A stretch of DNA of 24,401 bases from a virus. Under the pieces are notes generated by a model. It did not search any database. It was given only the letters and a program-made list of their open reading frames with translations, and was not told the DNA's origin. The DNA lies in IMG/VR virus record IMGVR_UViG_3300031823_000025, positions 1-24,401 of that record. The stretch is one strand, 5' to 3'. Shown piece by piece: positions 6,633 to 24,233 of the stretch. The translations under genes were made by a program, and so were the position numbers. Position 1 is the stretch's first letter. Each line of letters starts with the position of its first letter.

Positions 6633-7856
6633 TCAGCCGAGAACCGCGCAACTGAAGTATTCGGAATAACGGCTGCCGATGCCGAAGATGCACTCCATCC
6701 TGACTGTGGTGTTGCCCGCATAAGGCCCGCTCGAATTCCACTGCCAGATGCAGCGGATCGAGATGTTGGTCTCGGGGTCCGTCATGACGGTGCACATCGA
6801 GCCGTACTTCGAAACGTCTTCGAGTTCGATGAAGGCCGCTGTGTAAGCGCCCTTCTGCATCGCGATCGCGTTCGTGTAGCCGACGCCCGAGGCGTTGGCC
6901 ATGGTGATGACCGCAGTGTCGATGGGCGAGCCCGAGCAGTTCTGGTAAGGGCCTTCCGTGACCATGGCCGGGAAAATCTGCATGGTCAGCGCGCCGGCGG
7001 CGTCGTTGACCGGGGCGGTGAGCTGCCATTGCGCGAGCACGCCGCCGGTATTCAGCCGCGAATCGGGATTGACCGCATAGACGCCCGCGAAGGTGAAGCG
7101 CTCGTTACCGGCGAGGATGGTCGTCCCCGAGCCCCAGCCGGTGGTGAGGATGGAGCTGCCGGACTGCCCGGCGCCGTGCACGGTGCCGACGGTGACCCAG
7201 GTGCCGGGGGTGATGAACGGCGTCTGCTCGTCGTCCATGAAGTCGAAGTCGAACTGGCGTCCGACGCGCCCTGTCAGGAATTCTTTGCCGATGATCTGCG
7301 CCGGGTTAAAAAACGCCGCGTTCGCTTTGACGATGGGCTGCGCAAACGCGCTCGTGAAGATCACGACCCGGTCGTCAAAAGGCGCGAGAAGCTGATTCAG
7401 CTTGGTCTGCGCGCTGGCATAAGTGTCGGTCGTGGTGGGGGGCGTGCCCGGCGTCCCGACCCAGTTGGGCGACGTGGCTGCGATGTACTGCAGCATCAGC
7501 AGGTCGATCCGGTTCGCCATGTGGATGGCGCCCGGCTTCAGGTAGTTTTTGCGCTTGTCTTCATCCAGAAACATCGCGTCTTCGCGCGAGTTGTACATGA
7601 AGTTGTAGTTCACCCAGAAGGCGATCTGCAACGGCACGGTTGTCCGGACCAGGCCTTCGGGATTGAACCCCATGCCGGTGCCGCCGATCGATTTGATCGG
7701 GCGCAGCATGTCGAGCGAATCGCCGATTTTTACCGCTTCTTTGAAATACTTCTCGTCTTCGCGTCCGACGAACGCGGGCACGACGCAGTTGTTGGAGAGC
7801 ACCTCCATGGCGTCGGCGGTGTGTTCGCGGCGGATTGTTTCAAAATTGTCAGCCAC
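6633..7856 (-). CDS. Major capsid protein, P22 coat-like
   Basis: The 407-residue protein matches the size range and features of P22 gp5-type coat proteins (P22 gp5 is 430 residues). The N-terminus NFETIRREHTADAMEVLSNNC leads into a helical region and then VGREDEKYFKEAVKIGDSLDMLRP. A basic-acidic patch around NSREDAMFLDEDKRKNY, Gly/Thr-rich beta segments (residues 220-330) and a C-terminal SYFSC-type strand follow. The start is GTG at 7856 with a strong AGGAGG 5 nt upstream, the best ribosome-binding site in the window, as expected for the most abundant virion protein. It follows the scaffold gene, as in P22. Confidence 0.85.
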   Translation of the reverse strand: MADNFETIRREHTADAMEVLSNNCVVPAFVGREDEKYFKEAVKIGDSLDMLRPIKSIGGTGMGFNPEGLVRTTVPLQIAFWVNYNFMYNSREDAMFLDEDKRKNYLKPGAIHMANRIDLLMLQYIAATSPNWVGTPGTPPTTTDTYASAQTKLNQLLAPFDDRVVIFTSAFAQPIVKANAAFFNPAQIIGKEFLTGRVGRQFDFDFMDDEQTPFITPGTWVTVGTVHGAGQSGSSILTTGWGSGTTILAGNERFTFAGVYAVNPDSRLNTGGVLAQWQLTAPVNDAAGALTMQIFPAMVTEGPYQNCSGSPIDTAVITMANASGVGYTNAIAMQKGAYTAAFIELEDVSKYGSMCTVMTDPETNISIRCIWQWNSSGPYAGNTTVRMECIFGIGSRYSEYFSCAVLG

Positions 7857-8144: not shown

Positions 8145-9130
8145 TTCCGCCCGGCCTGGGCGCGCCGCCAGACCTTGTAAGCCGGGTTGATCGTATGAGT
8201 GCCTGCGAGGTAAATCTCGGGCTTTCCGCCCGGAGTGGCCGTTCCACCCCGGACGGAGGCCTCCGCGCTCGGCCGCGGCTTCGGAGGTTTCGCGGCGTCA
8301 TCCGCCTTTTTCTTCTCCTCGGCCGCGGTCTTGCCTTCTACTGTGGCAGGTTTACTGTCTCGCGCCACTTTGCCTTCGAATCTGTGAAATGCCACGAGCG
8401 CTTCGATCTCGCCCTTCGGCCCCGACTTATACAGGTCGATCAGGCCCTGCAGTTTGGCCGGCTCCTTGAGCCAGTGATAGAAGCAGTCGTCGTTATGGGG
8501 CGAGCGCGCGATGGCCCAGAAAAGCGACGGGCACTCCTTGCCCAGATCCACGCTGAGCGCCGCGCCCGTGCCCGCCTTCAGGACTTCATCCCAGTCCTCG
8601 TATTTCGCCGGGGCGGCTGCCATGCGCTCGTTATACCCGTCGATGGTCGCCTTGACTTCCGCAGCCTGCGCATCCTCGGCGGTCTTCTTGTCGATCAGTT
8701 TTTGGGCGATCTGCTCGGTCTTCGCGGCGGCGAACAGTTCGTCGCTCGCGTAGTCTTCGCGCTTTAACGCCGCCCCTGGCGTCGCGACGGTCGCGGCGAC
8801 CGGCTTCGGGGCTAGCGCGTCGAGCCGGGCGCGCAGCTCGCCGATTTCCTGGTCGCGTTTCGAGAGCGCGCGGCGGAATTTCCTTTCATCGCCCGAGGCC
8901 CGTTTCTGCGGCTCGGCTGCCGCTGCTGCCGCTGCCTTGGCCGCGTCGTCGGCGGCTTTGGCTTTTACGGGGTCGGCGGCGATCGCGCGCGCCTCCTGCG
9001 TCTGCTTGTAGAGTTCGCTCGGCGTCAGGACTTTTTCTTCGGCTGGCGGAATTACTATGGCTTCAGGTTCCAGAATCGTCTCCTTGTGGCGTTTGTTGCT
9101 GTTGCTGCTGCGCGGCCTGCGCACTCGCAT
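8141..9130 (-). CDS. Scaffolding protein
   Basis: The protein has up to 329 residues. It is Ala/Lys/Glu-rich and mostly helical, with coiled coil at about residues 60-112 (RALSKRDQEIGELRARLDAL) and a basic C-terminal helix (INPAYKVWRRAQAGRN). That C-terminus is typical of scaffolds that bind the coat's inner face. It lies between portal and coat, as in P22. The only ATG (9130) overlaps the portal gene by 68 nt and gives an Arg/Ser/Asn-rich start unlike the rest. A strong AGGAG (9080-9084) points instead to a non-AUG start: CTG at 9073 (6-nt spacing) or ATT at 9076, giving an N-terminus LEPEAIVIPPAEEK. The start is therefore uncertain, the gene secure. Confidence 0.78.
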   Translation of the reverse strand: MRVRRPRSSNSNKRHKETILEPEAIVIPPAEEKVLTPSELYKQTQEARAIAADPVKAKAADDAAKAAAAAAAEPQKRASGDERKFRRALSKRDQEIGELRARLDALAPKPVAATVATPGAALKREDYASDELFAAAKTEQIAQKLIDKKTAEDAQAAEVKATIDGYNERMAAAPAKYEDWDEVLKAGTGAALSVDLGKECPSLFWAIARSPHNDDCFYHWLKEPAKLQGLIDLYKSGPKGEIEALVAFHRFEGKVARDSKPATVEGKTAAEEKKKADDAAKPPKPRPSAEASVRGGTATPGGKPEIYLAGTHTINPAYKVWRRAQAGRN

Positions 9131-11339
9131 CGGCTGCCTCGCTTGCGTCCTGCGTGCTCGACGCCGCGGCTGCCACCTGGGCGTTCGCGGCCATTTCCTT
9201 CTGATGCTGCAGATCGACGGCTTGCCCCGCCGTATCGTGTGCGAGGCCCGTCAAATGCTCAAAGGTATCGGCCAGGGTCTGCGCCGTATCCACCTTGGCC
9301 GCGATCCGCGCGACTTCGACTTTGGTAAGCGAGTCCACGAGCTTGATCCATTTGTCGGCTTCGATTTTTGGTAACCCGGCTTGCATGGCCTGATGCATCT
9401 GCTGCAGGCCCGCAGTCAACTGTTGAATGCGCTGCTGGGCCTGTTGCAGTTGTCCCTGCACCTGCGCCGCGTTCGGCTGATCGCCCGCGCCGCCGGGTAA
9501 AAGGTCCGCGATCTGATCCGTGCGCGGATCCCCGTCGCCCAGCATTCGCAGATAAGCCGCGGCCACGCCGGGTATCTGCAGTAATCCGGGCGCCGCTTTG
9601 AACAGGCTCTCCATCGAACCCTGCGCCTGCTGCGTTTTGGTCTGCGGCGACGGCCCTGCATCAACCCGCACCGAATAACGCCCCAGCGCGATATCGTGCC
9701 GCTGCATCTTCGGCTTGCCGTCCGCGTTCTTCTGGCCCGACGGGTGCGGGAAATCCTGGTTAATCAGCTTTTGTTCATTCTGGCCGTCCGCGCCGATGAT
9801 CGTCTGCGCGCGCGGCGCATCGAGGATCTTGGGGAAAATGCGCAGCCAGCGCTGATACATGACCGCGACGCCCGAATTCACGCCGTCCGGATAAGAGAAT
9901 GTGCCCTTCGACGATTCGGCCTGCAGGGCGCGGATGGCTTCGCCGGACTGATCCGCCGTGCGTTTGCCGAGCGATGTCGCGGAGTAAGCGCTCGCGGCCT
10001 GGATCGCGTCTTTGAAGAAACTCGCCAGCGCGATGAGCCACTGGATAGAGGCTTCCATCATGTTGCGCTGCGGCAGCGGCGCGAAAGTCGGCCGGCCCGT
10101 CGTCTCATCGACCATCTGGACGGGCTCGACCGCGAGCCAGGCATGGTCCTCGGTGGTCGCCGTCGCCCACTTGTTGACGCCGTCGTCGCCGATATCTTCG
10201 AACTGGCCCTTGGTTCCGATGAACGGCGCGCGCGGCACTTTGCCCGCGATCTCCATCATGGAAGTCGCGGTAAAGTTCAACGCCCGATTAGGCCCGATCA
10301 TCCCGGCTGCGAGCGACCCGCGATGCAGTTTGCCGTCGATGTAGGTCTCCGGGCCGAGAATCGCGAGCGCCGGAATATAGCCGTCGATGAACTCTTCTTT
10401 TTTCAGTTCCTCGCAGGCGTCGATCACGTATTTCGTGCAGGTGCGCACCGGGACCATGCGCTCGTATTCGCTCTGATCGCCCGTCGCGTCTGTCTTGACG
10501 GCCACGCCTTTCGGCAGGCGTTTGGCGTCGGCGTCGAAACGGAAGATGTTATCCGTGTACATCCGTTTCTTGCGCAGCTCGACGGTCACGCGCCAGAATT
10601 CCGCGACCCAGAACGGCCCCTGGCCGCCCGTCGTCCAGGTATTCATCGACGCGTAATTGCCGGCCCACCCGAACATCGATTGCGCGCTGCCCGCCCAGCT
10701 CTTGAACGCGGCAAGAAATCCCCGGTCGAGCACTTTGCGCTTTTTGCCGTACGCGAGCTGGTACGCCTCGCGGTCGAGAATGACCGGGCCTTTGAGGGCC
10801 ATCAGCGCGTCTTCGCGGTTCTCGCCCCTGGCCAGCGGATCGAACCACCACATGGCCGGGTCGGGATTCGGGACCACGTAAATTTCCTGGTCGAGCGATT
10901 CCTCGTCCGCATAGCGCGTCCCGTACTCGATAACCCCGTAGCCGGTGATGGCGCTGTGTCTGCCCGCCGCGACGTAGGCCTGCGTGGCGTCCGACGCATA
11001 TTCCGTCTGGCGGATGACGCCCGCGATCACGTCGGCGGTTTCGGCGTCGGCCCCCGCGCCCACGGGATGGCAGATCGGCCCCGGCGGATTCAGGCGAATG
11101 TCGGTCTCGACCTGCGCGATGGCCGGCGCGATCTCGTTGATCTCGATCATGGGGCGGCGCTTGGCGCGGCGGCGTGCGCGCTCCTTCTCGTCCCACTGAA
11201 GCCCCTGCCCGACGTACATCTCGAGACGCAGCTTCATCTGCTTGCGCAGATCGCTCTCATGGTCCTGGCACCGGTCGAGGAAGCGACGGGCCATGCGCGG
11301 GATGTCGTGGTCGTCGGTTTCGAGGGGATCGGTGGCCAT
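9063..11339 (-). CDS. Portal protein, P22 gp1-like
   Basis: The 758-residue protein is close in length to P22 gp1 (725) and has the family's N-terminal hallmarks: RPMIEINEIAPAIAQVETDIRLNPPG (about residues 62-87), PVGAGADAETADVIAGVIR, then TGYGVIEYGTRY. It forms the 12-subunit ring through which DNA is pumped and to which the terminase and adaptors dock. Residues 600-720 are Gln-rich coiled coil (QGQLQQAQQRIQQLTAG), matching the helical barrel of long P22-like portals. The tail is Gln/Thr-rich. The region 10651-10735 (residues about 202-230) is copied exactly at 11618-11702. Confidence 0.88.
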   Translation of the reverse strand: MATDPLETDDHDIPRMARRFLDRCQDHESDLRKQMKLRLEMYVGQGLQWDEKERARRRAKRRPMIEINEIAPAIAQVETDIRLNPPGPICHPVGAGADAETADVIAGVIRQTEYASDATQAYVAAGRHSAITGYGVIEYGTRYADEESLDQEIYVVPNPDPAMWWFDPLARGENREDALMALKGPVILDREAYQLAYGKKRKVLDRGFLAAFKSWAGSAQSMFGWAGNYASMNTWTTGGQGPFWVAEFWRVTVELRKKRMYTDNIFRFDADAKRLPKGVAVKTDATGDQSEYERMVPVRTCTKYVIDACEELKKEEFIDGYIPALAILGPETYIDGKLHRGSLAAGMIGPNRALNFTATSMMEIAGKVPRAPFIGTKGQFEDIGDDGVNKWATATTEDHAWLAVEPVQMVDETTGRPTFAPLPQRNMMEASIQWLIALASFFKDAIQAASAYSATSLGKRTADQSGEAIRALQAESSKGTFSYPDGVNSGVAVMYQRWLRIFPKILDAPRAQTIIGADGQNEQKLINQDFPHPSGQKNADGKPKMQRHDIALGRYSVRVDAGPSPQTKTQQAQGSMESLFKAAPGLLQIPGVAAAYLRMLGDGDPRTDQIADLLPGGAGDQPNAAQVQGQLQQAQQRIQQLTAGLQQMHQAMQAGLPKIEADKWIKLVDSLTKVEVARIAAKVDTAQTLADTFEHLTGLAHDTAGQAVDLQHQKEMAANAQVAAAASSTQDASEAADASAQAAQQQQQQTPQGDDSGT

Positions 11340-11353
11340 TCTAAACTGGGTTC

Positions 11354-11473
11354 ATGAGCTGGTGGCGCTGGGCCGGAGCGGCGGCATCATTCGCCTTCGG
11401 ATGTTTGGCATTCGGAATGGCCGCGGTGTCGGCCTGTCGGCTCGTGGCGATTATTCGCCGGAAAGGACGCTGA
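11354..11473 (+). CDS. Small single-pass membrane protein (39 aa), plus strand
   Basis: The frame encodes MSWWRWAGAAASFAFGCLAF followed by more hydrophobic residues and a basic IIRRKGR end. One membrane segment spans about residues 5-32, with a positive cytoplasmic tail. The TGA overlaps the ATG of the next plus-strand gene (TGATG), so they look like a two-gene unit running opposite to the portal gene, whose start is 14 nt away. It could be a membrane effector or a lysis helper; no family is recognised. Confidence 0.5.
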   Translation: MSWWRWAGAAASFAFGCLAFGMAAVSACRLVAIIRRKGR

Positions 11474-11924
11474 TGGCCGCATTGACTCGCCGGTCGTTCC
11501 TCGCCGCCGCAGCCGCCGCGCTGGTTCACGATCCGGAGCGCGCGCTCTGGGTACCCGGCGCGAAACTGATTTCGATCCCGGCGGCGCGGCCCGTCGAATG
11601 CCTCATAATGCGCGTGAGCGTAATTGCCGGCCCACCCGAACATCGATTGCGCGCTGCCCGCCCAGCTCTTGAACGCGGCAAGAAATCCCCGGTCGAGCAC
11701 TTCGGTCGTTCCTCGCCGCCGCAGCCGCCGCGCTGGTTCACGATCCGGAGCGCGCGCTCTGGGTACCCGGCGCGAAACTGATTTCGATCCCGGCGGCGCG
11801 GCCCGTCGAATGCCTCATAATGCGCGTGAGGTGGTGCCGCAATCCGTACACCCGGGTCGAATGGATCATACGCGACTCAGAATTTAAATTGGACCCGGCC
11901 CTGGCCGTGCGCGTGTTCGGCTAA
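11473..11924 (+). pseudogene. RR-leader small protein, disrupted by 212-bp insertion
   Basis: The reading frame begins MAALTRRSFLAAAAAALV followed by HDPERALWVPGAKLISIP. This leader-plus-motif layout (twin-Arg-like RRSFL, DPERxLWVPGxK) recurs in small phage proteins encoded near portal or terminase genes, by memory of the family. A 212-bp duplication breaks the frame after residue 49, and the shifted frame stops at 11781. Deleting one 212-bp unit (for example 11619-11830) restores 79 residues ending in RDSEFKLDPALAVRVFG and TAA at 11922-11924. The stop shares CTAA with the opposite gene. It may be an assembly artefact rather than a true pseudogene. Confidence 0.65.
11491..11830 (+). repeat. 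Exact 128-bp direct repeats flanking an 85-bp portal-gene copy
   Basis: 11491-11618 is identical to 11703-11830 at all 128 bases (offset 212). The 85 bases between them, 11618-11702, are identical to 10651-10735 inside the portal gene, in the same orientation. One G is shared at the first junction; no longer homology is seen at the second. The layout X-P-X is what a template jump into the portal gene and back to the start of X would leave. Confidence 0.95.
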
Positions 11925-12658: not shown

Positions 12659-13948
12659 TCAGCTCCATTCCGTGGGCGGATCGTAACGCGCCTGCGCCCC
12701 CGGCGTCGCGATTCTGCGCTCAGTTTTCGGCATCACGATGCCCTGCGCGGCGTAGCCGAACGCGTCGGCTCCATGCGAGGCCCAGTCGTGGACGGGCTTC
12801 ACGGTCGCAGTGCCCATGTCCTTGACTTCGCCGTAGCGGTAGTACCGCAGGCAATTCAGGCCGTCGGCGCATTTGTCGGCGTCGAACCAGCAGTTCGGCG
12901 CTATCGTTCGCGCCGTCTCGATACGGTCCGCGACGGCGCGTTTCGGCAGGATGCGGATCGAGCGGCCAGCGGTCCGCATGGCCTGATCGAGACTCCCCGA
13001 AAGCATTCCGCTGCAGGCGTCCCACGGCAGGTAGTCCGTACCGTAGATATAGCCTTTGGCCTGCAGCAGGCCCAAATAGTGCTGCATCTTCTGGCCTGAA
13101 TCCTCCAGGTAGTCGATGAAGCGGTATTCGGCCATGAAGACCTGGAAGAACCATATCGCGGTCTTGTCGCCTTCGCCGAGATCCCACGCCGTGTGGACGG
13201 GCTTCAGCGGATCGTACGCCACGCGGCGGATGCGGCCTTCGGCTTCGGCGGCGCGCATCTCTTTCGCGTAGATCGCGCCTTCGAGCATCCGCTTCGGCTG
13301 GCCCAGCCAGACATGCGCATACATGTCCGGGTCCGAAATCGCGAGTTCTTCGCGGCCTTTGCGGAGCACTTCGGACGCCCAGGGGTTATCCGTCCACAGC
13401 ACCTTGACCACAACAGCTTCGGACGGTGGATGGACGACGAACCGCTGATAGGTCTCGTCCGTCGCCAGCTCGGGATTGAAGCTGACCCAGATTTCGGACG
13501 CGACCGGGTGCGTCGGCGGACCTTTACGCACGGTGTCGATCAACTTGACCCACGAATCTTTGGATACGTTGGCCGCTTCTTCCACCCACACCACGTCCGC
13601 CCCTTCGAGCGATTTGATCGCAGAGACGTTGTGCTTCAGTCCCGCGAACACAAACTCGGTCCCGTTCGCCCCGATGATTTTGCGCTTCTCGACGGTGTAG
13701 AACTCCGCCATGCCCAGGTTGGTGATCTGGCTGGCGAGCGTGCGGTGAACCGATTCCTGGATCGACGCCATGAGTTCGCGCGTGCAGACGATCAACATCT
13801 TGCGGCGCATTCCCAGCACGAGCAGCGCGCGCGCGAAATTCCAGCTTTTCGCGCCGTCGCGACCGCCGTAGGCGACTTTGAATCGCGCGGGCTGAAACAG
13901 AAAGTCGAGCGCCAGCGGGAAGAGCGCTCGCGGAAGCTGTGGGTTCAC
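12659..13948 (-). CDS. terL: Terminase large subunit (packaging ATPase and nuclease)
   Basis: The 429-residue motor pumps DNA into the prohead and cuts concatemers. The Walker A is YGGRDGAKSW (residues 27-36), with Ala in place of the usual Gly before Lys-Ser, a variant seen in other terminases. Walker B is VVWVEEA (119-125) and the coupling motif is SFNPE (156-160). The RNase H-like nuclease shows AWDLGEGD (254-261, Asp256), LPWDA (307-311, Asp310) and HDWASHGADAF (387-397). All expected acidic residues are present, so it looks active. The start is GTG at 13948, 9 nt after the previous stop. Confidence 0.93.
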   Translation of the reverse strand: MNPQLPRALFPLALDFLFQPARFKVAYGGRDGAKSWNFARALLVLGMRRKMLIVCTRELMASIQESVHRTLASQITNLGMAEFYTVEKRKIIGANGTEFVFAGLKHNVSAIKSLEGADVVWVEEAANVSKDSWVKLIDTVRKGPPTHPVASEIWVSFNPELATDETYQRFVVHPPSEAVVVKVLWTDNPWASEVLRKGREELAISDPDMYAHVWLGQPKRMLEGAIYAKEMRAAEAEGRIRRVAYDPLKPVHTAWDLGEGDKTAIWFFQVFMAEYRFIDYLEDSGQKMQHYLGLLQAKGYIYGTDYLPWDACSGMLSGSLDQAMRTAGRSIRILPKRAVADRIETARTIAPNCWFDADKCADGLNCLRYYRYGEVKDMGTATVKPVHDWASHGADAFGYAAQGIVMPKTERRIATPGAQARYDPPTEWS

Positions 13949-13957
13949 GGAGGCTGG

Positions 13958-14509
13958 TCAGTACCCCGTGCAGATGAACCTGAAGGTGTCGGTAGTCGTG
14001 TTGGGGCCGGTAAAGGTCACTGCCGACCCGCTCACATAGCCCGCCGTGAGGACGCCGATATTAGTTGCAATGGTGGTTGCGTCCTGGGCCGTGCACAGAT
14101 AGCTCGTAGCGGAGGTGAACGCGGGCGAAATGGTGGTCACGGCATAGGTAGAGGGCGATCCGGTGGCGAGTAACCCGATGCCAATGACCGTCCGCAGCGT
14201 TCCCCGGACCGTCGACGGGCAGGCGGCGGTCGTCGCGCAGTCCGCAAAGCTCGACACCGGCACCACGGTCGCGGTCTGGCCGGCCAGCGTAGCCAGTTGC
14301 GTGTTGATGTTTGCGAAATTGGTATTCGCCAGAACCCAGTTCGCATTCGACTGGATAAGGTTGTTGACTGTGAATGCGCCAGCGCCGTCGGGCAGCGCGG
14401 GCATAGTCGTAATGGTCGCGGCCTGGGATGCCACGATGTAGAGGAGCGCGCCCGCCGCCAGGCCTGCGAGGCCGGTGAGCGAGAGATTGCGAAGCGTGGG
14501 TTTCATCAT
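13958..14509 (-). CDS. Sec-signal protein inserted between terminase genes
   Basis: The protein has 183 residues. A basic start (MMKPTLRN) is followed by a hydrophobic segment at about residues 10-30 ending VASQA before ATIT, read as a Sec signal peptide or a single membrane anchor. The rest is Thr/Ala/Ser-rich with four Cys near ADCATTAACP, SYLCTAQ and FICTGY. ATG overlaps the small terminase stop as ATGA. No family is recognised. It shares an exported, Thr-rich, Cys-bearing style with the protein at 5535-6599. Export suggests a cell-surface or periplasmic role, or a virion decoration. Confidence 0.65.
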   Translation of the reverse strand: MMKPTLRNLSLTGLAGLAAGALLYIVASQAATITTMPALPDGAGAFTVNNLIQSNANWVLANTNFANINTQLATLAGQTATVVPVSSFADCATTAACPSTVRGTLRTVIGIGLLATGSPSTYAVTTISPAFTSATSYLCTAQDATTIATNIGVLTAGYVSGSAVTFTGPNTTTDTFRFICTGY

Positions 14510-15039
14510 AGTTTTACGTCTCCGGGGCGCACGAATTCAATGGTGAGCGAGGCGGCGACCGGGCCGCCCGCGGCGCCGGTCAGCTCGACCGCGGCCGCAC
14601 GGAAAGCCGGGATCTTCGCGCGCAAGAGCGCCTGATGCAGCATTTCCGAACGTTTCCACGTCCCGAGCGGCGGCGCGCCGGGAACATCGCGGACGCCCAT
14701 GACGGCGGGAATGCGAATCTGGCCTTTGCGTTTCCCGCTCCGAAAGAGCACGGCGGGCGCGGACTCGAACTCTTCCTGCGGATAACAGAACCGCCCCTGG
14801 TATACGTTTGGCTCATACACGCCGACGAGCGCGCGCTGGACCGCCGCGTCATAGAGCGTCTGCGTCGCCTGTTCGTCCGCTTCGGCGAAGGCCTGCACAT
14901 AGGCCGGATCGGTTTTGAGCCAGCGATAATGCTCGCCGCGATCCATGTGCACGGCGGCAGCGGACGCGGTCAAATCGCCGAGGATCACGTAGGCGGCGAG
15001 GAAAGCGCGTTTTTTGTTGATGCGGGTCTGCGATTTCAC
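14506..15039 (-). CDS. terS: Terminase small subunit-like protein
   Basis: From GTG 15039 (GTGA overlap with the hydrolase stop) the protein has 177 residues; a longer in-frame start at 15096 would overlap that gene by 60 nt and is less likely. An N-terminal helix-turn-helix (KKRAFLAAYVILGDLTASAA, then HYRWLKTDPAYVQAFAEADEQ) is typical of small terminases that recognise the packaging site. The C-terminal half, with a basic patch FRSGKRKGQIR, probably oligomerises. The adjacent large terminase, one gene downstream, supports the call. Confidence 0.75.
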   Translation of the reverse strand: MKSQTRINKKRAFLAAYVILGDLTASAAAVHMDRGEHYRWLKTDPAYVQAFAEADEQATQTLYDAAVQRALVGVYEPNVYQGRFCYPQEEFESAPAVLFRSGKRKGQIRIPAVMGVRDVPGAPPLGTWKRSEMLHQALLRAKIPAFRAAAVELTGAAGGPVAASLTIEFVRPGDVKL

Positions 15040-15509
15040 GGTTTTGCTGCAGCAGCCGAGACGATCCCGTACAGATCTCCCGGACTGATGAGCCACGGCG
15101 CGCGCGGCAGCGTCAGCGCGCCGCAGGCGGCGAGAGCCGAAGCGCAGAATTCCGAACAGAAGACATCGTGATCGTCGTGCTGGCCCGAACCCGTCTTATA
15201 GCCTAGCAGGCCGAGCGTGTCATACGATTTGCCGTTCGCGCCCGCGCAGAATCCGGCAATAAAAGCGGCCATGAAAGCTTCTCGCCCGGCTGCCGCCCCG
15301 ATCTCGACGATTTCCCACTCGGGTTGCTCCAGATCGAGAACGACCAGGGCTACTCCGTCGAACTCCCGGCTGGACCAACAAAGAGCCGCGCCTCTCTCGC
15401 CGCCCACCCACAGCTCAACATGACTGTACGGGCTGTGGGTCGCGGCGGCGATCAGTTTCGACCACTCGCTTGATGTCTGAGCGGCGATCTTGAATGCGAG
15501 CGCGATCAC
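15036..15509 (-). CDS. Permuted papain-like (NlpC/P60, YiiX-type) hydrolase
   Basis: The start is GTG 15509, overlapping the previous stop as GTGA, giving 157 residues. SPYSHVELWVGG places a likely catalytic His at residue 30, and VFCSEFCASAL places a likely catalytic Cys at residue 118. The His-before-Cys order is that of circularly permuted NlpC/P60 enzymes (YiiX/YebB type), which cut amide or ester bonds in peptidoglycan or lipids. GKSYDTLGLLGYKTG between them is also typical. It could be a lysin, an ejection enzyme or a modifier of host lipids. The hydrophobic small genes upstream might serve as holins. Confidence 0.75.
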   Translation of the reverse strand: MIALAFKIAAQTSSEWSKLIAAATHSPYSHVELWVGGERGAALCWSSREFDGVALVVLDLEQPEWEIVEIGAAAGREAFMAAFIAGFCAGANGKSYDTLGLLGYKTGSGQHDDHDVFCSEFCASALAACGALTLPRAPWLISPGDLYGIVSAAAAKP

Positions 15510-15852: not shown

Positions 15853-16350
15853 TTATGCCGCCGCCGTAGGTTTTGGCTGCGTCTGTGAAGGCGAAGACGC
15901 GCCCCCGACCGCCGTGACGAGCGCGGGCAGAATCGCGGCCATGGCCGTCGAAATCGCCGTCGCGAGAGACGAAGCGATGATCGGCACCATGGTGGTCGCC
16001 AGATCCGCCACATTCGCCGCCACCTGCTCGGCCGAAACGCCGACGCCGCCAACGATGGCGTCGCCCGTCGCCGTGCGCACGGGGCTCACGGTCTGCTGGT
16101 TTTCGGTCATGCCGGACTGCCCGGCTTGCACGAGTCCGAGAGTCGCCAGGTGTTTAACGGTCTGATTGTCCTGGGCGACGCTCAGGTTGAACGCCTGCCA
16201 CGCGCTGTCGTTCGCGCCGTTATTGCCGGTGCGCCTGCGGGCGTCGGCGGTGTTGTCTTCGACGAGCTGCTTCATGTTGAGAGCGACTTCGCCGGAATTC
16301 GGGTTAAGGACCGCGACGGGATATGCGTATGCGGCGTTCGGATCGGACAT
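15853..16350 (-). CDS. Hypothetical phage protein (165 aa)
   Basis: ATG 16350 (MSDPNAAYAYPVAVLNP) is preferred because AGGAG lies at 16363-16367, upstream at 12 nt. In-frame ATGs at 16386 and 16410 lack such a site, and 16386 falls at the predicted transcription start of the motif at 16392-16418. Features are an extended Asn-rich N-terminal half (GEVALNMKQLVEDNTADARRR), NQQTVSPVRT in the middle, and an Ala/Val-rich helical stretch at about residues 105-150. No family is recognised. It begins the operon that runs into the terminase genes. Confidence 0.65.
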   Translation of the reverse strand: MSDPNAAYAYPVAVLNPNSGEVALNMKQLVEDNTADARRRTGNNGANDSAWQAFNLSVAQDNQTVKHLATLGLVQAGQSGMTENQQTVSPVRTATGDAIVGGVGVSAEQVAANVADLATTMVPIIASSLATAISTAMAAILPALVTAVGGASSPSQTQPKPTAAA

Positions 16351-16391
16351 GTTTTGCGTTTTCTCCTGTGGAATTACGAGGCTCATTGGTG

Positions 16392-16418
16392 TAATCGCCG
16401 AAACGCGCAAAAACGCGG
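16392..16418 (-). promoter_or_regulatory. Candidate phage promoter, sigma-28-like motif copy 1
   Basis: Minus strand reads CCGCGTTT, 11 nt, GGCGATTA. It matches copy 2 in both halves and in spacing. Predicted transcription would start near 16385, giving a leader of about 35 nt before ATG 16350. The -35 half overlaps the terminator stem and T-run of the NusG-like gene. Confidence 0.5.
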
Positions 16419-16435
16419 CCCGCCTTCACGCCGCG
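16409..16435 (-). terminator. Intrinsic terminator after the NusG-like gene
   Basis: On the minus strand CGCGGC, a 10-nt loop and GCCGCG are followed by TTTTT (16413-16409). The stem overlaps the last codons and the stop of the NusG-like gene. Confidence 0.65.
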
Positions 16436-16902
16436 CCCACATCGGCCGCGTCGATCTCGACGGCCACGGAGCGCCCCAGTATCGCGACCGGCACAGTCAG
16501 AGTTGTTGTCAAGCCTGTCGCGCCCCGCACGCGGGTTACGATGCCGGTCACGCCTGCAAACGGGCCGCGCGCCACGGTGATGGTCGAGCCTGCCACATAT
16601 GGGCAGGGCCGAACGGCACGCGGCGCGCGCACCAGACGTCTGAGATCGGCGATTTCGGCGTCCGCAATCGCAGCCGGCCGGCCGTCGATCAGCAGGATCG
16701 AAGCCACGCCGCGGGTGCGCAGCACTTCAATGCGCTCATCGGTCTCCGGATCGAATCGGGCAAAAATGTAGCCGGGAAAAAGCGGCCGCGTCACGAGCGC
16801 GATACGGTCGGTCCAGCGGGATTCCTCGGTGTAGACCGGCAGAAACTCGGGAATGCCCAGCGCCCGCAACTGGTCGCGGACCGCGAAGGCATAGCGGGGC
16901 AT
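16426..16902 (-). CDS. NusG/RfaH-like transcription elongation factor
   Basis: The protein shows a NusG N-terminal domain: WFALALMPRYAFAVRDQLRALG, FLPVYTEE, RPLFPGYIFARFD, then GVASILLIDGRPAAI. A C-terminal KOW domain follows: GSTITVARGPFAGVTGIVTRV. It would bind RNA polymerase beta-prime and promote read-through, like RfaH or specialised NusG paralogues. The first ATG in frame (16902) lies 6 codons after the conserved Trp that starts the domain's first strand. No ATG, GTG or TTG exists between that Trp (16920) and the upstream stop, so translation probably starts at a non-standard codon further up. An apparent promoter and terminator make it a separate transcription unit. Confidence 0.82.
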   Translation of the reverse strand: MPRYAFAVRDQLRALGIPEFLPVYTEESRWTDRIALVTRPLFPGYIFARFDPETDERIEVLRTRGVASILLIDGRPAAIADAEIADLRRLVRAPRAVRPCPYVAGSTITVARGPFAGVTGIVTRVRGATGLTTTLTVPVAILGRSVAVEIDAADVGAA

Positions 16903-16982
16903 GAGTGCCAGCGCGAACCAGCGCCGGCAGGGAGCGGCTGCCGCCGGAGGTTCAATTCCGCGGTAGAGGCCGGGCGCCCGCG

Positions 16983-17005
16983 GGGACTCCGTCCCTTCGA
17001 GTCCC
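16983..17005 (-). promoter_or_regulatory. Hairpin in the leader of the NusG-like gene
   Basis: GGGACTC and GAGTCCC form a 7-bp perfect stem with a 9-nt loop. It falls between the predicted transcription start near 17041 and the NusG-like coding region. It may be a translation control or a recruitment site for the NusG-like protein itself. Confidence 0.4.
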
Positions 17006-17047
17006 AGGCCGTCGCATATGGAATCTTGCGCTGGCAGCTCACTTATG

Positions 17048-17074
17048 TAATCGCCGGATGGGGGAAAAACGCGG
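17048..17074 (-). promoter_or_regulatory. Candidate phage promoter, sigma-28-like motif copy 2
   Basis: Minus strand reads CCGCGTTT, 11 nt, GGCGATTA, followed by CATAA and then GTG at 17042. It is the best match to copy 1. Predicted transcription starts near 17041 and would read the NusG-like gene after a leader of about 120 nt. Confidence 0.5.
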
Positions 17075-17102
17075 CAACTGCGGTTACGCCCGGGCTGCCG
17101 CG
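17065..17102 (-). terminator. Intrinsic terminator after the 84-residue gene
   Basis: On the minus strand CGCGGCA and TGCCGCG pair across a 19-nt loop and are followed by TTTTT (17069-17065). The stem overlaps the 3' end of the 84-residue gene. The long loop weakens the call. Confidence 0.5.
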
Positions 17103-17338
17103 GCGCGTGAAACCGATTTCTCGCTGTCGCGTGGTCCGTTGGACCGCGCCGCCACAGCCGCCCGGTTCCGTTTGCGCCGCTCGATCTCGCGCTCGTCGGC
17201 CTCGGCCTGCAGGGTGTAACAAGCCGCCGTGCGCAGCCGGTTGGCGAGTTCAGGATTATAATCCCGCGAGCCGCCGCGCTCAAAGGATTCAGCCAGTTCG
17301 ACGAGAAATTGGGTGCAGTTCACGGCTTTCCTCCCCAT
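17084..17338 (-). CDS. Small charged helical protein (84 aa)
   Basis: The protein begins MGRKAVNCTQFLVELAESFERGG and contains DYNPELANRLRTAACYTLQAE followed by DEREIERRKRNR. It is mostly helical with a basic Ala/Arg-rich end. The ATG is 2 nt after the previous stop. It ends inside the terminator stem. No family is recognised; the non-repetitive N-terminal 60 residues look like real coding sequence. Confidence 0.6.
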   Translation of the reverse strand: MGRKAVNCTQFLVELAESFERGGSRDYNPELANRLRTAACYTLQAEADEREIERRKRNRAAVAARSNGPRDSEKSVSRAAAARA

Positions 17339-17340
17339 TT

Positions 17341-17613
17341 TTACCCGCGCTGGTGCTGCAGTTGCCAGGTGCGGATTTCGCGCACGTCGGCCTGGATCGC
17401 ATCCAACCGCTGCACGAGCGAGTTAAAATCCCGCAACGAAACGTTGTTTTCTTCGATCCACCGCACGCGGCGCTCCAGTTCTTCCACATGCGCCGACTCG
17501 GCGGCGTTCGTGCGCCCGGCTGTGTCGCGCCGTATCAGCCAGTTGATGAGCAGGGTCAGGACGGACGACAAGATAGCCACGAGCAGGCTCGCGACCGCAA
17601 TCGAGAAAGTCAT
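17341..17613 (-). CDS. Small membrane protein with coiled coil, possible lysis factor
   Basis: The protein has 90 residues. One membrane helix spans residues 3-27 (FSIAVASLLVAILSSVLTLL), followed by a basic RR and a coiled coil at residues 40-82 (VEELERRVRWIEENN, LVQRLDAIQADVREIR). ATG overlaps the previous stop as ATGA. The layout fits an inner-membrane spanin or a small holin accessory, but the link to lysis is only inferred. Confidence 0.65.
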   Translation of the reverse strand: MTFSIAVASLLVAILSSVLTLLINWLIRRDTAGRTNAAESAHVEELERRVRWIEENNVSLRDFNSLVQRLDAIQADVREIRTWQLQHQRG

Positions 17614-18074
17614 GGCGTGCCTGATTTGCCAACGGAGAGAGCCCCGCGTTCGGTGATCTTGAAACTGCGGAAGCCGGTGTTCGCGCTGGTGACAACGTCG
17701 AATGCGATCGCGCAGGGCACTTTGTCGTCGAGCACCTTCAGGGTCACTTTCGCGATGAGCGAGAAAGCTTTCAGTCCGATCGCTTTAATCAGCTTCGGGT
17801 AATCGATCGAGCGCTCGACGCCGCGCCAGCCGAGCTCAACCACATACCGCGTACCTGCTGCCTCGCATGTCTCGTTCGCCGGGGCGTCCTCGAAGCGGCT
17901 GCGTATCGCGGCGCGCAGCGCGGTTTCGCGCGAGATCAGGGCGCGCAGCGGAGCGAGCTGCTTGTCGATATCGCCCAGCTCATCCACTTGGGAGACGAGT
18001 TGCTGGGCGGCCAGTTGCTGCGCGGTTTTCTGGCTGGTGTCGAGAGCGGTTTTTTTGGATGGAGCGGCGGTCAC
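17610..18074 (-). CDS. Coiled-coil phage protein (154 aa), function unknown
   Basis: The start is GTG 18074. Residues 10-65 are helical coiled coil (KTAQQLAAQQLVSQVDELGD, then QLAPLRALISRETALRAA). A compact domain follows (GTRYVVELGWRGVERSIDY, then KLIKAIGLKAFSLIAKVTLKVLDD), and the end is FRSFKITERG. Phages often carry coil-plus-small-domain proteins of this build among early-middle genes; exact function is unknown. The candidate promoter at 18082-18108 ends 7 nt before the GTG, so its mRNA may be leaderless. Confidence 0.65.
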   Translation of the reverse strand: MTAAPSKKTALDTSQKTAQQLAAQQLVSQVDELGDIDKQLAPLRALISRETALRAAIRSRFEDAPANETCEAAGTRYVVELGWRGVERSIDYPKLIKAIGLKAFSLIAKVTLKVLDDKVPCAIAFDVVTSANTGFRSFKITERGALSVGKSGTP

Positions 18075-18081
18075 ATATTTT

Positions 18082-18108
18082 TAATCGCCGAACGGCGCGG
18101 AAGTGCGG
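18082..18108 (-). promoter_or_regulatory. Candidate phage promoter, sigma-28-like motif copy 3
   Basis: Minus strand reads CCGCACTT, 11 nt, GGCGATTA. The -10 half and spacing are identical to copies 1 and 2; the -35 half differs at two bases. The GTG start of the 154-residue gene begins 8 nt after the -10 half. Confidence 0.5.
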
Positions 18109-18202: not shown

Positions 18203-18484
18203 ATGCCAAAGAGCAAAGTGCCCGCGCACGTCGTCAAACGCGACCGCGAGGGTCTTATCCGTTGCCGCGTCTGCGGCTGCACCGAGAACGACGCGTGCCC
18301 AGCCGGATGCAGTTGGTACGATCTCGACCTCTGCACGGTCTGCCGTGCGGTCGTGGTTGCCATCGCGGAGTGGACCGACGCCGCGCGGCACGTTAATCGG
18401 GCGGCTCTGTGGCGCGAAGTCGGCCGTGAAGTCAGAGGCGAGGTCTTTTCGATCCGCCGCGGGCGGCAACGGAGCGCCGCGTGA
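18203..18484 (+). CDS. Cys-rich zinc-binding-type protein (93 aa)
   Basis: ATG 18203 is chosen over an upstream in-frame TTG/GTG-type start because AGGAG lies 6 nt upstream (18192-18196). RCRVCGCTENDACPAGCSWY followed by DLDLCTVC holds six Cys (CxxCxC, CPxGC, CxxC). It is a widely seen small phage domain thought to bind zinc; function is unknown. The C-terminal third is Arg-rich. It begins a plus-strand operon of three overlapping genes, against the main gene direction. Confidence 0.75.
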   Translation: MPKSKVPAHVVKRDREGLIRCRVCGCTENDACPAGCSWYDLDLCTVCRAVVVAIAEWTDAARHVNRAALWREVGREVRGEVFSIRRGRQRSAA

Positions 18485-19062
18485 GCGCCGCAAAATCAGC
18501 GCCGACCACAGAACACAGGAATGAAGCGTGGCTCTCGAAATCCGCCGCCGCGCGGTTCCTGGGCGTGTCGGAGCGCCAGATCGAACGCCGCGAGCAGCAG
18601 GGTTACATCGAGAAACGCGTACTACCGCGCGATCCGCATGAATCGATGGCGCGCGTCGAGTACTCGCGGGCCGACCTCGAGGCCCTGAAAGCCGGGAAAC
18701 CGAATATGTATGCGCGGGAGGTGTCAAATATTATTGACAGGTCGCGGCCTGTCAATGAAACGGGGAAGCTCGGCGATCTGGCGCATCCGCTCAGCCAAAC
18801 GGCGCTCGCGATCCGTGGCCGGCCAGCGGGGGTTGATGGTTTTGCGGCTCTCGCCGCGCACCTGGCGCGGCTGTCTGCCGCGTATGCGCCCGCCGAAGCG
18901 GTGCCGTGGCTCTCACTGCGCGATGCGGCGAAATATTCTGGCCTTCCGCGTCGTTATCTTCTCGACGCGGCCCGCGATGGCGCGCTTTTCGCCCGCGACG
19001 TCTCGGTTGGCGGGGCACGCTCGCGGTGGATGTTCAACCGGGAAGCGCTGGGGAGGTTATGA
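18481..19062 (+). CDS. Double helix-turn-helix DNA-binding regulator
   Basis: GTG 18481 overlaps the previous stop as GTGA; 193 residues. Two excisionase/MerR-type winged helix-turn-helix units are visible. Residues 16-72 read WLSKSAAARFLGVSERQIER, then REQQGYIEKR and YSRADLEALKAG. Residues 143-193 read WLSLRDAAKYSGLPRRYLL, then AARDGALFARDV and FNREALGRL. The linker (75-135) is low in order. Two linked binding units suggest recognition of direct or inverted repeats. It could be an excisionase-like architectural protein or a transcription switch controlling the divergent gap. Confidence 0.8.
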   Translation: MSAAKSAPTTEHRNEAWLSKSAAARFLGVSERQIERREQQGYIEKRVLPRDPHESMARVEYSRADLEALKAGKPNMYAREVSNIIDRSRPVNETGKLGDLAHPLSQTALAIRGRPAGVDGFAALAAHLARLSAAYAPAEAVPWLSLRDAAKYSGLPRRYLLDAARDGALFARDVSVGGARSRWMFNREALGRL

Positions 19063-19385
19063 GCGTTCTCGCGTGCCCGTTCTACGGCGCATCGATCCAT
19101 CTCGATCAATTAATTCGCATTGGGGCAGATGGGAGTAACCGGTGCGCGCTCATCGTAGGAGCGCACTCGCCGTGTTTCATGACGGCGGTCGAAAATCGCC
19201 CTGCGGATTGGGAGGATTGCCCGCGAAATCCGGAGTTTGTCGCTCGTTGCACCTGGCCTGTTGGCGACGAAGAATCGGTGTACCGCAGGCGGACGGATCG
19301 CTTGCAGACGGCGGCCGTGGATCTGATGCGGCTGATCGCGGTCAGAGACGCGGTTGTAGCTGAAACCGTCACGCCGCCGGGTTGA
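19059..19385 (+). CDS. Small conserved Cys protein (108 aa)
   Basis: ATG 19059 overlaps the previous stop as ATGA, with GGAGG just upstream. The N-terminal CPFYGASIHL, then RCALIVGAHSPCFMT and DWEDCPRN, form a Cys-His pattern known from small soil-phage proteins of unknown role and likely to bind a metal. The C-terminal third is a helix (RRRTDRLQTAAVDLMRLI). It ends 17 nt into the 3' end of the opposite-strand sigma gene. Confidence 0.7.
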   Translation: MSVLACPFYGASIHLDQLIRIGADGSNRCALIVGAHSPCFMTAVENRPADWEDCPRNPEFVARCTWPVGDEESVYRRRTDRLQTAAVDLMRLIAVRDAVVAETVTPPG

Positions 19386-20001
19386 ACCGCCGCCGCAGCT
19401 CCGCTATAGCGGCGTTATACTCGCGGCGCACCGCTTTCACCCCCATCCCGAGCCGGCGCGCCGTTTCGACGCGGTTGGGCTCATCTCGGGATCCGTAATA
19501 CATCCCGAGTACCCGCCGCTGGACCACGGGCAGGCTGCCGACGGCGTCGATCAGCCGGGTGGCCATGCGCGTGGCATCGAGATCTTCCACGACGGTCGGT
19601 TCGACCGCCGGTTCAGCGATATATCCGCCATCGGTCGCGAAAATACTCGGTCTGGTCTGCTCCTCAAACCGGTGTTTCTTGCCGCCCACGAGATCGAGCA
19701 TTGCGCCGCGGACGCGTTTCCGGGCAAATACCGCAAACGGAACTTCTGGATGCGCCAGCGGCCGGAAACACGTCGCCGCGTGCAAGAGCGCGAGGTTTCC
19801 GGCGCCGATCAGGTCCGCGAGATCGAAACCGGGCGGAAGCCGCCGGTGGAGCGCGTGCGCAATCCCCGCTACAAGGCTTAAGTGGTCTGCAATGAGAGAA
19901 TCGCGCTCCCGGCGAACGCGAGCGCGGAGTTCCGGTGCATCGTCAATGGGAGTAACAATCTTCCGCATGATCGACAAAAGAGACATCGCTCTCGCGCTCA
20001 T
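19369..20001 (-). CDS. Phage-encoded sigma-70 family factor, FliA-like
   Basis: The protein has up to 210 residues. Region 2 spans about 38-105: HLSLVAGIAHALHRRLPPG, DLADLIGAGNLALLHAATCF, then FAVFARKRVRGAMLDLVGG. The RVRGAMLD end resembles the RIRGAMLD of FliA-type sigma factors. Region 4 spans about 148-205: LPVVQRRVLGMYYG, ETARRLGMGVKAVRREYN. Region 3 is mostly replaced by a Pro/Glu-rich linker, shorter than in FliA. It would redirect host RNA polymerase to phage promoters. In-frame ATGs at 20001, 19986 and 19968 are all possible; none has a clear ribosome-binding site. Confidence 0.85.
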   Translation of the reverse strand: MSARAMSLLSIMRKIVTPIDDAPELRARVRRERDSLIADHLSLVAGIAHALHRRLPPGFDLADLIGAGNLALLHAATCFRPLAHPEVPFAVFARKRVRGAMLDLVGGKKHRFEEQTRPSIFATDGGYIAEPAVEPTVVEDLDATRMATRLIDAVGSLPVVQRRVLGMYYGSRDEPNRVETARRLGMGVKAVRREYNAAIAELRRRFNPAA

Positions 20002-22229: not shown

Positions 22230-22700
22230 TCATTGAGGGATCTCCGGCGCGGGCAGTTCCTTGAATCGCTGCTCCATGACAAGCTCGAAGACCGTGCGGC
22301 CGCCCGCGACGAGCATGTAGGGCGTGAAGACCTGGATATTAGAAACCATCCCGGTCTCGATCAGCGCCACCTGCGCCTCAACCCAGCGGTAGAGTTGCCG
22401 CCATGCAATGCGCTCAGCCTGCGCCGTCAGAATGGCGCGGTCGGCTGGGCCTTTATGCAGGTGGCTGCGCGCGGACCAGAGTTTGTCGAAAATGGCGCTT
22501 ACCTTGGCCGGGATCTGAAACGGAAATTCGAGACGGTCCTGCTCAAAGTGAAACTCGATGCCGGCCATTTTGCGATCGCTGTATATCGCGGCGACGCGGG
22601 TCGCACCCGCTTCGACGAGCTTCGACGTGATTTCTCCCGCGCTGCGCTCGACGGGCACATCGGTCGTGCCCATAAATAGGGCTTTCTTTTTGCCGCTCAT
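22230..22700 (-). CDS. Conserved phage protein (156 aa), function unknown
   Basis: ATG 22700 overlaps the DUF6745-like stop as ATGA. Sequence reads KKKALFMGTTDVPVERSAG, then LVEAGATRVAAIYSDRKMAG, IEFHF and LEFPFQIP. The helical C-terminal half holds AERIAWRQLYRWVEAQVALI and TGMVSNIQVFTPYMLV. This beta-then-WRQL-helix layout is recalled from many phage proteins with no known role. The AWRQLYRWV helix is the best mark for a family search. Confidence 0.7.
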   Translation of the reverse strand: MSGKKKALFMGTTDVPVERSAGEITSKLVEAGATRVAAIYSDRKMAGIEFHFEQDRLEFPFQIPAKVSAIFDKLWSARSHLHKGPADRAILTAQAERIAWRQLYRWVEAQVALIETGMVSNIQVFTPYMLVAGGRTVFELVMEQRFKELPAPEIPQ

Positions 22701-23896
22701 GACTCCGCCGCGAGCACGTACTGGCTCTTGCTCAACGAAAACGTCCACGCCTTCGCAGCCAGGTAATCCGATTGATCCGGCGGGACGCGAATCACGTAAA
22801 CGGCGGACGTCGACGGGCAGCGCAGCCGAAGGGCCACGATGCGGCGTTCCGGGTCATCAGGCAGATCGATGGCCAGCAACTCGCCGTCGCCGCCGCGATC
22901 AATAATTACGGCTCCCGCGTCATTGATGAAGCGGTCCTGGCCGTAGCGCTCGATCATGACGCGCCGGACTTCCGCGTTCCGCTCGTCGAGAACATGCCGC
23001 ACAGTGATCCAGTCTGGCCGAACCACCACGAAGGCAGGCACCATGACGCCGTGCCAGAAGTAAAGGTTTTCGACGTCAGATTCAAGAGCGGCGTACCGTT
23101 CGCCGTGAAGCCTTCGCCTTTCGTCGAGGCGAACGGTGGGTTTTGCGACCCAATACAGGGTATCTTCGGTGAAATGCAGTAGCCACGCACCCGACAGAAA
23201 GGCGCTATAAACAGGTTCCGCCCACGCTTGGACGCAGCTGTGTTTCAACTGGACCGCACCGATGTAAGTTGTCGCGATCCACGACAGATCGAATCTCCAA
23301 CCCCACCATCCCCACGTCTGGATGCACCACGCGGCGAATCGCTGAATAGCCCGAGCGTCCCGAGCGGCCCGAGCGTCCCGAGTGGCCTGAGCGGCCCGAG
23401 CGTCCCGAGCGGCCAGAGCGGCCTGAGCGGCCTGAGCGTCCCGAGCGGCCATAGCGTCCAGAGCGTCCTGAGCGGCCCGAGCGTCCCGAGCGGCCATAGC
23501 GTCCTGAGCGGCCTGAGCGGCCATAGCGTCCCGAGCGGCCAGAGCGTCCAGAGCGGCCATAGCGTCCTGAGCGGCCATAGCGTCCCGAGCGGCCAGAGCG
23601 TCCAGAGCGTCCCGAGCGTCCCGAGCGGCCATAGCGTCCTGAGCGTCCAGAACGTCCAGAGCCACAGGGGCATGGGCAAGACGAATTCTATGCATCACCT
23701 CGAACACGTATTTGTGCAAGGACGGCTGGTCGTCAAGGCTCCATCCCGCGCGGAGACGCACGATTTCCCGCTCGATTCCCAAGGCCGACAGATAGCGCGC
23801 GAGATGGCCTTCCACCTCGCGCTCGTCCAGCCTGCCCGGATAATTGCAAGCCTCCGCGAAGGGAGCTAAAAGACCGCGCGAATCAGTCGACGACAT
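22697..23896 (-). CDS. DUF6745-like protein with Ala-rich triplet repeat
   Basis: Start ATG 23896 (MSSTDSRGLLAP) is preferred over 24010 because it has GAGG 9 nt upstream and a short overlap with the preceding gene; 399 residues. Residues about 84-183 are a run of three-residue units [D/A]-A-[R/Q/M/L]. The C-terminal part matches the pattern remembered for DUF6745: LHGERYAALE, LYFWHGVMVP (281-283 WHG), ITVRHVLDERNAEVRRVMI, ERYG, VYVIRVPPDQ and AWTFSL. Proteins of that family often carry similar short repeats before this region. Function is unknown. A cargo or toxin-like role is possible but unproven. Confidence 0.75.
   Translation of the reverse strand: MSSTDSRGLLAPFAEACNYPGRLDEREVEGHLARYLSALGIEREIVRLRAGWSLDDQPSLHKYVFEVMHRIRLAHAPVALDVLDAQDAMAARDARDALDALAARDAMAAQDAMAALDALAARDAMAAQAAQDAMAARDARAAQDALDAMAARDAQAAQAALAARDARAAQATRDARAARDARAIQRFAAWCIQTWGWWGWRFDLSWIATTYIGAVQLKHSCVQAWAEPVYSAFLSGAWLLHFTEDTLYWVAKPTVRLDERRRLHGERYAALESDVENLYFWHGVMVPAFVVVRPDWITVRHVLDERNAEVRRVMIERYGQDRFINDAGAVIIDRGGDGELLAIDLPDDPERRIVALRLRCPSTSAVYVIRVPPDQSDYLAAKAWTFSLSKSQYVLAAES
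23346..23663. repeat. Tandem 9-bp repeats, about 35 units, inside a gene
   Basis: Units have the form NNAGCGKCC on the plus strand. Only the first two bases (CG, TG, AG, AT) and the sixth (G or T) vary. On the minus strand codon 1 is GAC or GCC, codon 2 is nearly always GCT, and codon 3 is CGG, CAG, ATG or CTG. All three plus-strand frames are open as a by-product. Confidence 0.9.
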
Positions 23897-24233
23897 TCCG
23901 TATCGCCTCAGGCGAATACTCCCGCTGAATGCGGATCTCATAGTTACCCGGCGAGAGCGAAACCGGGCCGTGCTCTTCATGCACGAAGGTCGCGCCGGGA
24001 TCGCCCGCAATCGAAACGCCCTCGCCGGAAACGCGGACGAAAATACCCTCGCCGATTTCCAGCACTTCCGCTGTCTCGAGATCCGCCAGACGATGCGAAT
24101 GCCCGGTCGACTCCCCGTATGCGACAGCGCCGTCCGGACGCTTCCTCGATGCGCCCGCCGGAAGTTTGTCGCGCCTGATAAACAGCACGTCCCCCTGTCT
24201 TTTCAATTCGCCGATTTTGCTCGCCATTTTCAT
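23883..24233 (-). CDS. Conserved protein (116 aa) paired with DUF6745-like genes
   Basis: The protein reads RQGDVLFIRRDKLPAGASRK, then AYGESTGHSHRLAD, ATFVHEEHGPVSLSPGNYE and IRIQREYSPEAIRNVVD. It is a small beta-rich fold with conserved His in GHSHR and HEEH, perhaps metal-binding. From memory it often sits beside DUF6745-like genes in bacteria; that pairing was not checked. ATG 24233 is one base after the previous stop, and its stop overlaps the DUF6745-like start by 14 nt. Confidence 0.7.
   Translation of the reverse strand: MKMASKIGELKRQGDVLFIRRDKLPAGASRKRPDGAVAYGESTGHSHRLADLETAEVLEIGEGIFVRVSGEGVSIAGDPGATFVHEEHGPVSLSPGNYEIRIQREYSPEAIRNVVD

Follow-up and report, generated by a model that had tools for sequence, protein, structure and literature searches.

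A three-copy motif in an uncultured P22-like phage probably marks promoters recognised by RNA polymerase with a FliA-derived sigma factor that the phage itself encodes; leaderless or near-leaderless late mRNAs would be made from them. Judged from sequence, we put the probability of this reading at about 0.85. The DNA that was analysed, an IMG/VR virus record of 24,401 bases referred to here as the window, contains CCGC(G/A)(T/C)TT-N11-GGCGATTA, also written CCGCRYTT-N11-GGCGATTA, in exactly three copies, each on the minus strand. By computation we show the motif and its placement, the homology of the sigma factor, the conservation of both, and the agreement between sigma region 4 and the -35-like half of the motif.

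The motif and the genes that follow it

The copies lie at 16392-16418, 17048-17074 and 18082-18108, each of them between genes. The -10-like half, GGCGATTA, occupies 16392..16399, 17048..17055 and 18082..18089. The -35-like half is CCGCGTTT at 16411..16418 and 17067..17074, and CCGCACTT at 18101..18108; all of these are on the minus strand. The first copy ends 5 nt upstream of ATG 16386 and the second 5 nt upstream of GTG 17042. An ATG also stands 5 nt after the third, directly followed by TGA; the usable start there is GTG 18074, at 7 nt, and the predicted +1 is at or beside it. The earlier note had reported three copies 5–7 nt before an ATG or GTG, two of them with identical halves and no fourth in the window. 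All of this was borne out: the matches are exact, the copies with identical halves are those at 16392 and 17048, and no further copy was found in the window with up to three mismatches allowed. By itself the octamer GGCGATTA occurs four times in the window, the fourth at 11446 (+), where no partner half was found. The comparison with shuffled sequence that the note had proposed gives an expectation of 0 copies. The octamer is biased toward the late strand, which was set aside as weak and not used as evidence, because the reverse complement contains a TAG stop and the bias is partly a coding effect.

Since the motif had been noticed and not predicted, a look-elsewhere test was run. Shuffled windows held on average 7.9 triples of repeated 8-mers with a second similar 8-mer, and the real window held 926, a number inflated by tandem repeats. 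The similarity of the three copies is unconvincing when taken alone, because such triples are common in GC-rich sequence. This version of the test, which took no account of start codons, was rejected as not discriminating and was replaced by one in which each of the three copies had to be followed, 4–9 nt after its end, by the start codon of a frame of at least 60 codons. With that condition the motif was the only triple in the window, and there were none in 100 shuffles.

The genes concerned are all on the minus strand. Downstream of the site at 18082 are gp154 (17610..18074) and a gene for a small, membrane-type, holin-like protein (17341..17613), which has a weak PHROG match (phrog_20, E 0.0056) and homologs in the related contigs L013 and L035. 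The site at 17048 lies between an 84-codon ORF (17084..17338), for which no Pfam or PHROG family was found, and the gene for a NusG-like protein of the UpxY/RfaH type (16426..17040). The site at 16392 precedes a gene of 177 or 165 codons (15853..16386), the shorter form depending on a second start, ATG 16350, with AGGAG upstream of it. Beyond this gene are the packaging and structural genes, among them those for the terminase small subunit (14506..15096; homology and synteny), the terminase large subunit (12659..13948; Pfam Terminase_3), a P22-type portal protein (9063..11339; Pfam P22_portal, 325 bits) and a P22-type coat protein (6633..7856), which matches P22 coat proteins. By its portal, coat and terminase large subunit sequences the phage is a P22-like podovirus.

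Two other regions of the window were recorded. At 11491-11830 a 128-nt stretch is repeated exactly, in direct orientation (11491-11618 and 11703-11830), and between the repeats (11618-11702) are 85 nt of DNA identical to the portal gene at 10651-10735; this is either an assembly artefact or a recent rearrangement. At 22697-24010 there is a DUF6745 protein with long tandem repeats of the AARDA/AAQDA type.

The NusG-like protein matches Pfam NusG with 54 bits and also phrog_6386, and it aligns with its relatives. Among NCBIfam models those for UpxY and RfaH score best; the window protein is under the curated UpxY cut-off (83.5 vs 100 bits), and its counterpart in L015 is above it (101.4 bits). 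Named phage records gave only remote matches. The resemblance to the NusG paralogs RfaH, UpxY and LoaP lies in these best-scoring models and in the location of the gene ahead of a long operon; the difference is that this gene is phage-encoded and stands beside a phage sigma factor. GTG 17042 is one base out of frame with the NusG-like ORF, and there is no in-frame ATG, GTG or TTG between the promoter and the first conserved strand of the protein (window 16920-17050); this may reflect an indel from sequencing or assembly, or else an unusual start.

The phage sigma factor and the FliA promoter

The sigma factor is encoded at 19369..20001 on the minus strand. Its match to Pfam Sigma70_r2 (26.2 bits) is above the cut-off and that to Sigma70_r4 (17.4 bits) is below it. 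The best solved relatives are FliA chains (9wsm, 9wsf and 6pmi), and the NCBIfam FliA and FliA/WhiG models rank first, with scores well under the curated cut-offs for full-length proteins (57.8 vs 201 bits and 52.4 vs 189.6 bits). In an alignment for which an E. coli FliA sequence served only as a guide, regions 2 and 4 are joined directly, and region 3 is absent in all of the phage copies. By sequence, then, the phage protein is FliA-derived but not a full FliA, with region 3 absent and scores below the cut-offs. A sigma factor having regions 2 and 4 only resembles the ECF (group 4) sigma factors (PMC6372665); the phage protein differs from these in being closest to FliA and in the FliA-like spacing and -10 of the sites. 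No relatives of it were detectable in named phage records, and bacterial MAGs yielded a single weak match, in Planctomycetota. The coat protein had no match in bacterial genome contigs.

The E. coli FliA promoter is TAAAGTTT-n11-GCCGATAA, and the aer transcript of E. coli begins 6 bp beyond the -10 octamer (PMC2859248). The octamers in the window are separated by the identical gap of 11, and by inspection GGCGATTA matches the FliA -10 at 6/8 positions; the -10 of the relative L013 is an exact match. The -35 halves in the window match TAAAGTTT at 4/8, 4/8 and 2/8 positions (inspection), and the halves of the relatives differ too. The likeness to bacterial FliA (sigma-28) comprises region 2, including RVRGAMLD, the gap, and 6/8 positions of the -10; among natural FliA promoters, that of aer has GCCGACAT (PMC2859248, PMC4183435). 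The phage system departs from it in a sigma factor without region 3 and with a weak region 4, in the -35 half, and in having phage late genes downstream instead of flagellar genes.

These comparisons qualify several statements of the earlier note. Its 11-nt gap and 6/8 match at the -10 are right by the published promoter (PMC2859248); the poor match of the -35 halves had been passed over. The FliA-like sigma factor that it reported stands as regards region 2 and homology, and falls short of a full FliA for want of region 3. The start that it expected 6–8 nt after GGCGATTA would fall on the start codons themselves, with a leaderless implication that it had omitted.

Leaderless or near-leaderless late mRNAs are predicted because 5–7 nt separate the -10 from the start codons of the window, and the FliA +1 is at 6 bp. 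In the relatives the distance is mostly 5–9 nt; the exceptions are gp154 of L023, which starts about 20 nt downstream of the -10, and NusG of L015, which starts 12 nt downstream.

In most relatives gp154 follows the sigma gene, and in the L013 phage it is fused to the C-terminus of the sigma factor in one continuous 390-codon frame (1354-2523 on the reverse complement of L018, which is from the same record as L013). The adjacency and the fusion suggest that gp154 is a partner of the sigma factor. No Pfam, PHROG or NCBIfam family was found for it. Its predicted fold (mean pLDDT 82) had no match in the PDB and weakly matched only uncharacterised phage proteins.

The element and region 4 in related phages

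Related contigs were gathered by alignments of the terminase, coat, NusG and sigma proteins; single-sequence scans with sigma or NusG gave almost nothing, and alignments were required. The order sigma, gp154, NusG is kept in many relatives, which carry -10 variants of their own, of the type GSCGAYTA, just before gp154 and/or NusG. In L015 there are three copies of GATCGTTY-N11-GCCGACTA, before gp154, a holin-like gene and NusG. Two copies each were found of GCACTTTT-N11-GCCGACTA in L023, of GCACGTTT-N11-GCCGATWR in L012 and of GCACGATT-N11-GCCGATAA in L013. The only three occurrences of TGCCGACT in the L006 contig precede gp154, a lipoprotein-like gene and NusG, and the 13.9 kb of L005 contain GGCGACTA just twice, once ahead of gp154 and once ahead of NusG. 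The -10 is GTCGACTA in L025 and GGTGACTA in L029 and L030. Around the -10, within-phage identity is about 0.25–0.35 beyond -23 and rises to 0.5–0.83 in a block at -22 to -15, which overlaps the FliA -35 position; a second block at that position is seen in six phages.

Four phages also have the -10 before a serine recombinase gene located far upstream of sigma (L021 2863, L021 being the wider stretch of L015; L024 247; L032 2370; L033 2456). In L032 it occurs with an identical flank before the phage's own sigma gene (9949) and before gp154, which suggests autoregulation; in the other phages that were checked, the sigma gene was not preceded by it. No motif was found before gp154 or NusG in L027, L028, L035, L036 and L039, or at two NusG loci from records without a detected sigma factor. 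Two local features were recorded in the promoter regions of relatives. In L013 a GIY-YIG homing endonuclease-like ORF, recognised by eye (9090-9941, minus strand), separates the late promoter at 8950 from the NusG gene, and in L006 a near-palindromic CTTTTTCAAAAAA / GCGATTTTTCAAAAAATCGC element is present in two promoter regions (1124-1160 and 1714-1780).

To count such sites, the octamer pattern G-N-Y-G-A-Y-T-D was used, which was written after several of them had been seen. In the related contigs 4,684 start codons begin a frame of 100 codons or more, and the pattern stands 4–10 nt before 57 of them. An octamer of the -10 type precedes the in-frame start at this distance in 20 of 34 gp154 and NusG genes, against 0.74 expected, an excess that is large, though partly circular.

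The strength of the -35 varies with the state of region 4. The sigma factors of L024, L029, L030 and L032 have lost the region 4 helix-turn-helix by deletion, and Pfam detects no region 4 in them. In each of these four phages the sites share the -10, and the -35 is not conserved (identity 0.12–0.38 vs a background of 0.29–0.31). The strongest -35s, with identities of 0.58–1.0 (window 0.83; L015 0.75; L023 1.0; L013 1.0; L006 0.58), occur with sigma factors that, where known, have a full-length region 4. The agreement is imperfect: L010, L025 and L033 have a full-length region 4 and a weakly conserved -35, and in L013 region 4 is below the detection score although the -35 is perfect. It is nonetheless the strongest argument that the phage sigma factor would be what reads the sites.

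There is precedent in other phages. The phiEco32 sigma factor gp36 is without region 4 and its promoters are without a -35 (PMC8948821), as in the relatives described here that have no region 4. Both gp36 and gp47 of phage 7-11 send host RNA polymerase to a few late-gene promoters, as proposed here for the window phage, and transcription in these systems starts 6–9 bp from the element (PMC8948821, PMC4331800). FliA-like character is not described for either; the 7-11 protein is closest, at about 50% similarity, to sigma-24 and other members of the sigma-70 family (PMC8948821, PMC4331800). Their consensus sequences are GTAAtg-(16)-aCTA or tAATGTAtA, in contrast to the FliA-like element with a gap of 11 that is placed on the start codon here.

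Proposed late transcription and its alternatives

From these results we infer recognition by the phage sigma factor, late timing, the point of transcription start, leaderless translation, and the roles of the NusG-like protein and gp154. Recognition of the -10-like GGCGATTA would fall to region 2 of the sigma factor, and that of the -35-like CCGC(G/A)(T/C)TT to region 4, at the FliA spacing of 11. Presumably made early, the sigma factor would then activate three same-strand transcription units: gp154 and the holin-like gene from the site at 18082, the NusG-like protein from that at 17048, and, from that at 16392, the gene that leads on to the cluster for packaging and structure. On this long cluster the NusG-like protein may act as an anti-pausing or antitermination factor of the RfaH/UpxY type. 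RNA would start on the start codon, or 1–3 nt from it, making the late mRNAs leaderless or nearly so. That a phage sigma factor and cognate promoters drive the NusG-like gene and the late operon had been proposed in the earlier note, and the sigma homology, the conserved syntenic elements and the match between the state of region 4 and that of the -35 support it.

The sites might instead serve a host sigma factor, FliA or another alternative one, the phage sigma factor having some other function. The -10 and the gap of 11 are like those of the bacterial FliA promoter, exactly so for the -10 of L013; but the -35 half is not that of FliA and varies from phage to phage, it is missing where the phage sigma factor has no region 4, no motif was found at the NusG loci from records without a detected sigma factor, and in L032 the sigma gene too has the motif ahead of it. 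We regard this reading as improbable. Still less probable is that the motifs are operators, bound by a phage repressor or activator and lying upstream of late genes by chance, even though an intergenic repeat of about 27 nt may be an operator and an excisionase/MerR-like helix-turn-helix protein is encoded nearby (18481-19062). The motif is not palindromic, the spacing and orientation of its halves do not change, its distance from the start codon hardly varies, and its conservation follows the phages that contain sigma and the state of region 4. That short and constant distance could also point to translation signals, either ribosome-binding or leader-peptide elements, and GGCGATTA resembles in part a sequence complementary to the 16S rRNA end. 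The variants GCCGACTA, GTCGACTA and GGTGACTA in the relatives do not fit an anti-Shine-Dalgarno sequence, however, and a conserved second block 11 nt upstream is not expected of a ribosome-binding site, which makes this the most improbable of the readings.

A more serious alternative, which competes only with the leaderless part of the preferred explanation, is that the phage sigma factor uses these promoters to make mRNAs with conventional leaders, and that translation begins at a Shine-Dalgarno start farther downstream, such as ATG 16350. The AGGAG ahead of that codon, the distant gp154 start in L023 and the out-of-frame GTG of the window NusG gene are consistent with it. At most sites the in-frame gene start is 5–9 nt after the -10, with no room for a ribosome-binding site, and we consider conventional leaders rather unlikely, though much less so than the other alternatives.

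Phage sigma factors with promoters of their own are already known, as in phiEco32 and 7-11. In the open-access literature, which is incomplete and does not take in subscription papers, we found no description of a FliA-derived phage sigma factor lacking region 3, or of late promoters that abut start codons. As a tentative picture, and one somewhat less probable than its converse when taken in full, there would be an uncultured family of P22-like phages in which the late genes are run by a minimal, two-domain, FliA-derived sigma factor, with promoters on the start codons, leaderless late mRNAs, gp154 as a sigma-bound partner, a phage NusG of the RfaH type, and region 4 and the -35 lost together.

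From sequence, the promoters that a phage sigma factor uses are notoriously difficult to predict (PMC4331800). In this family the sigma factor and its promoters are both available, and so is the way they change together, with region 4 and the conserved -35 naturally lost in the same phages; this joint change across relatives makes recognition of promoter by sigma factor directly testable with small proteins. The element provides a means of predicting late genes in these uncultured phages, and the system points to gp154 as a likely partner of the sigma factor. If the late mRNAs are indeed leaderless, a whole class of phage genes would, unusually, be translated without ribosome-binding sites.
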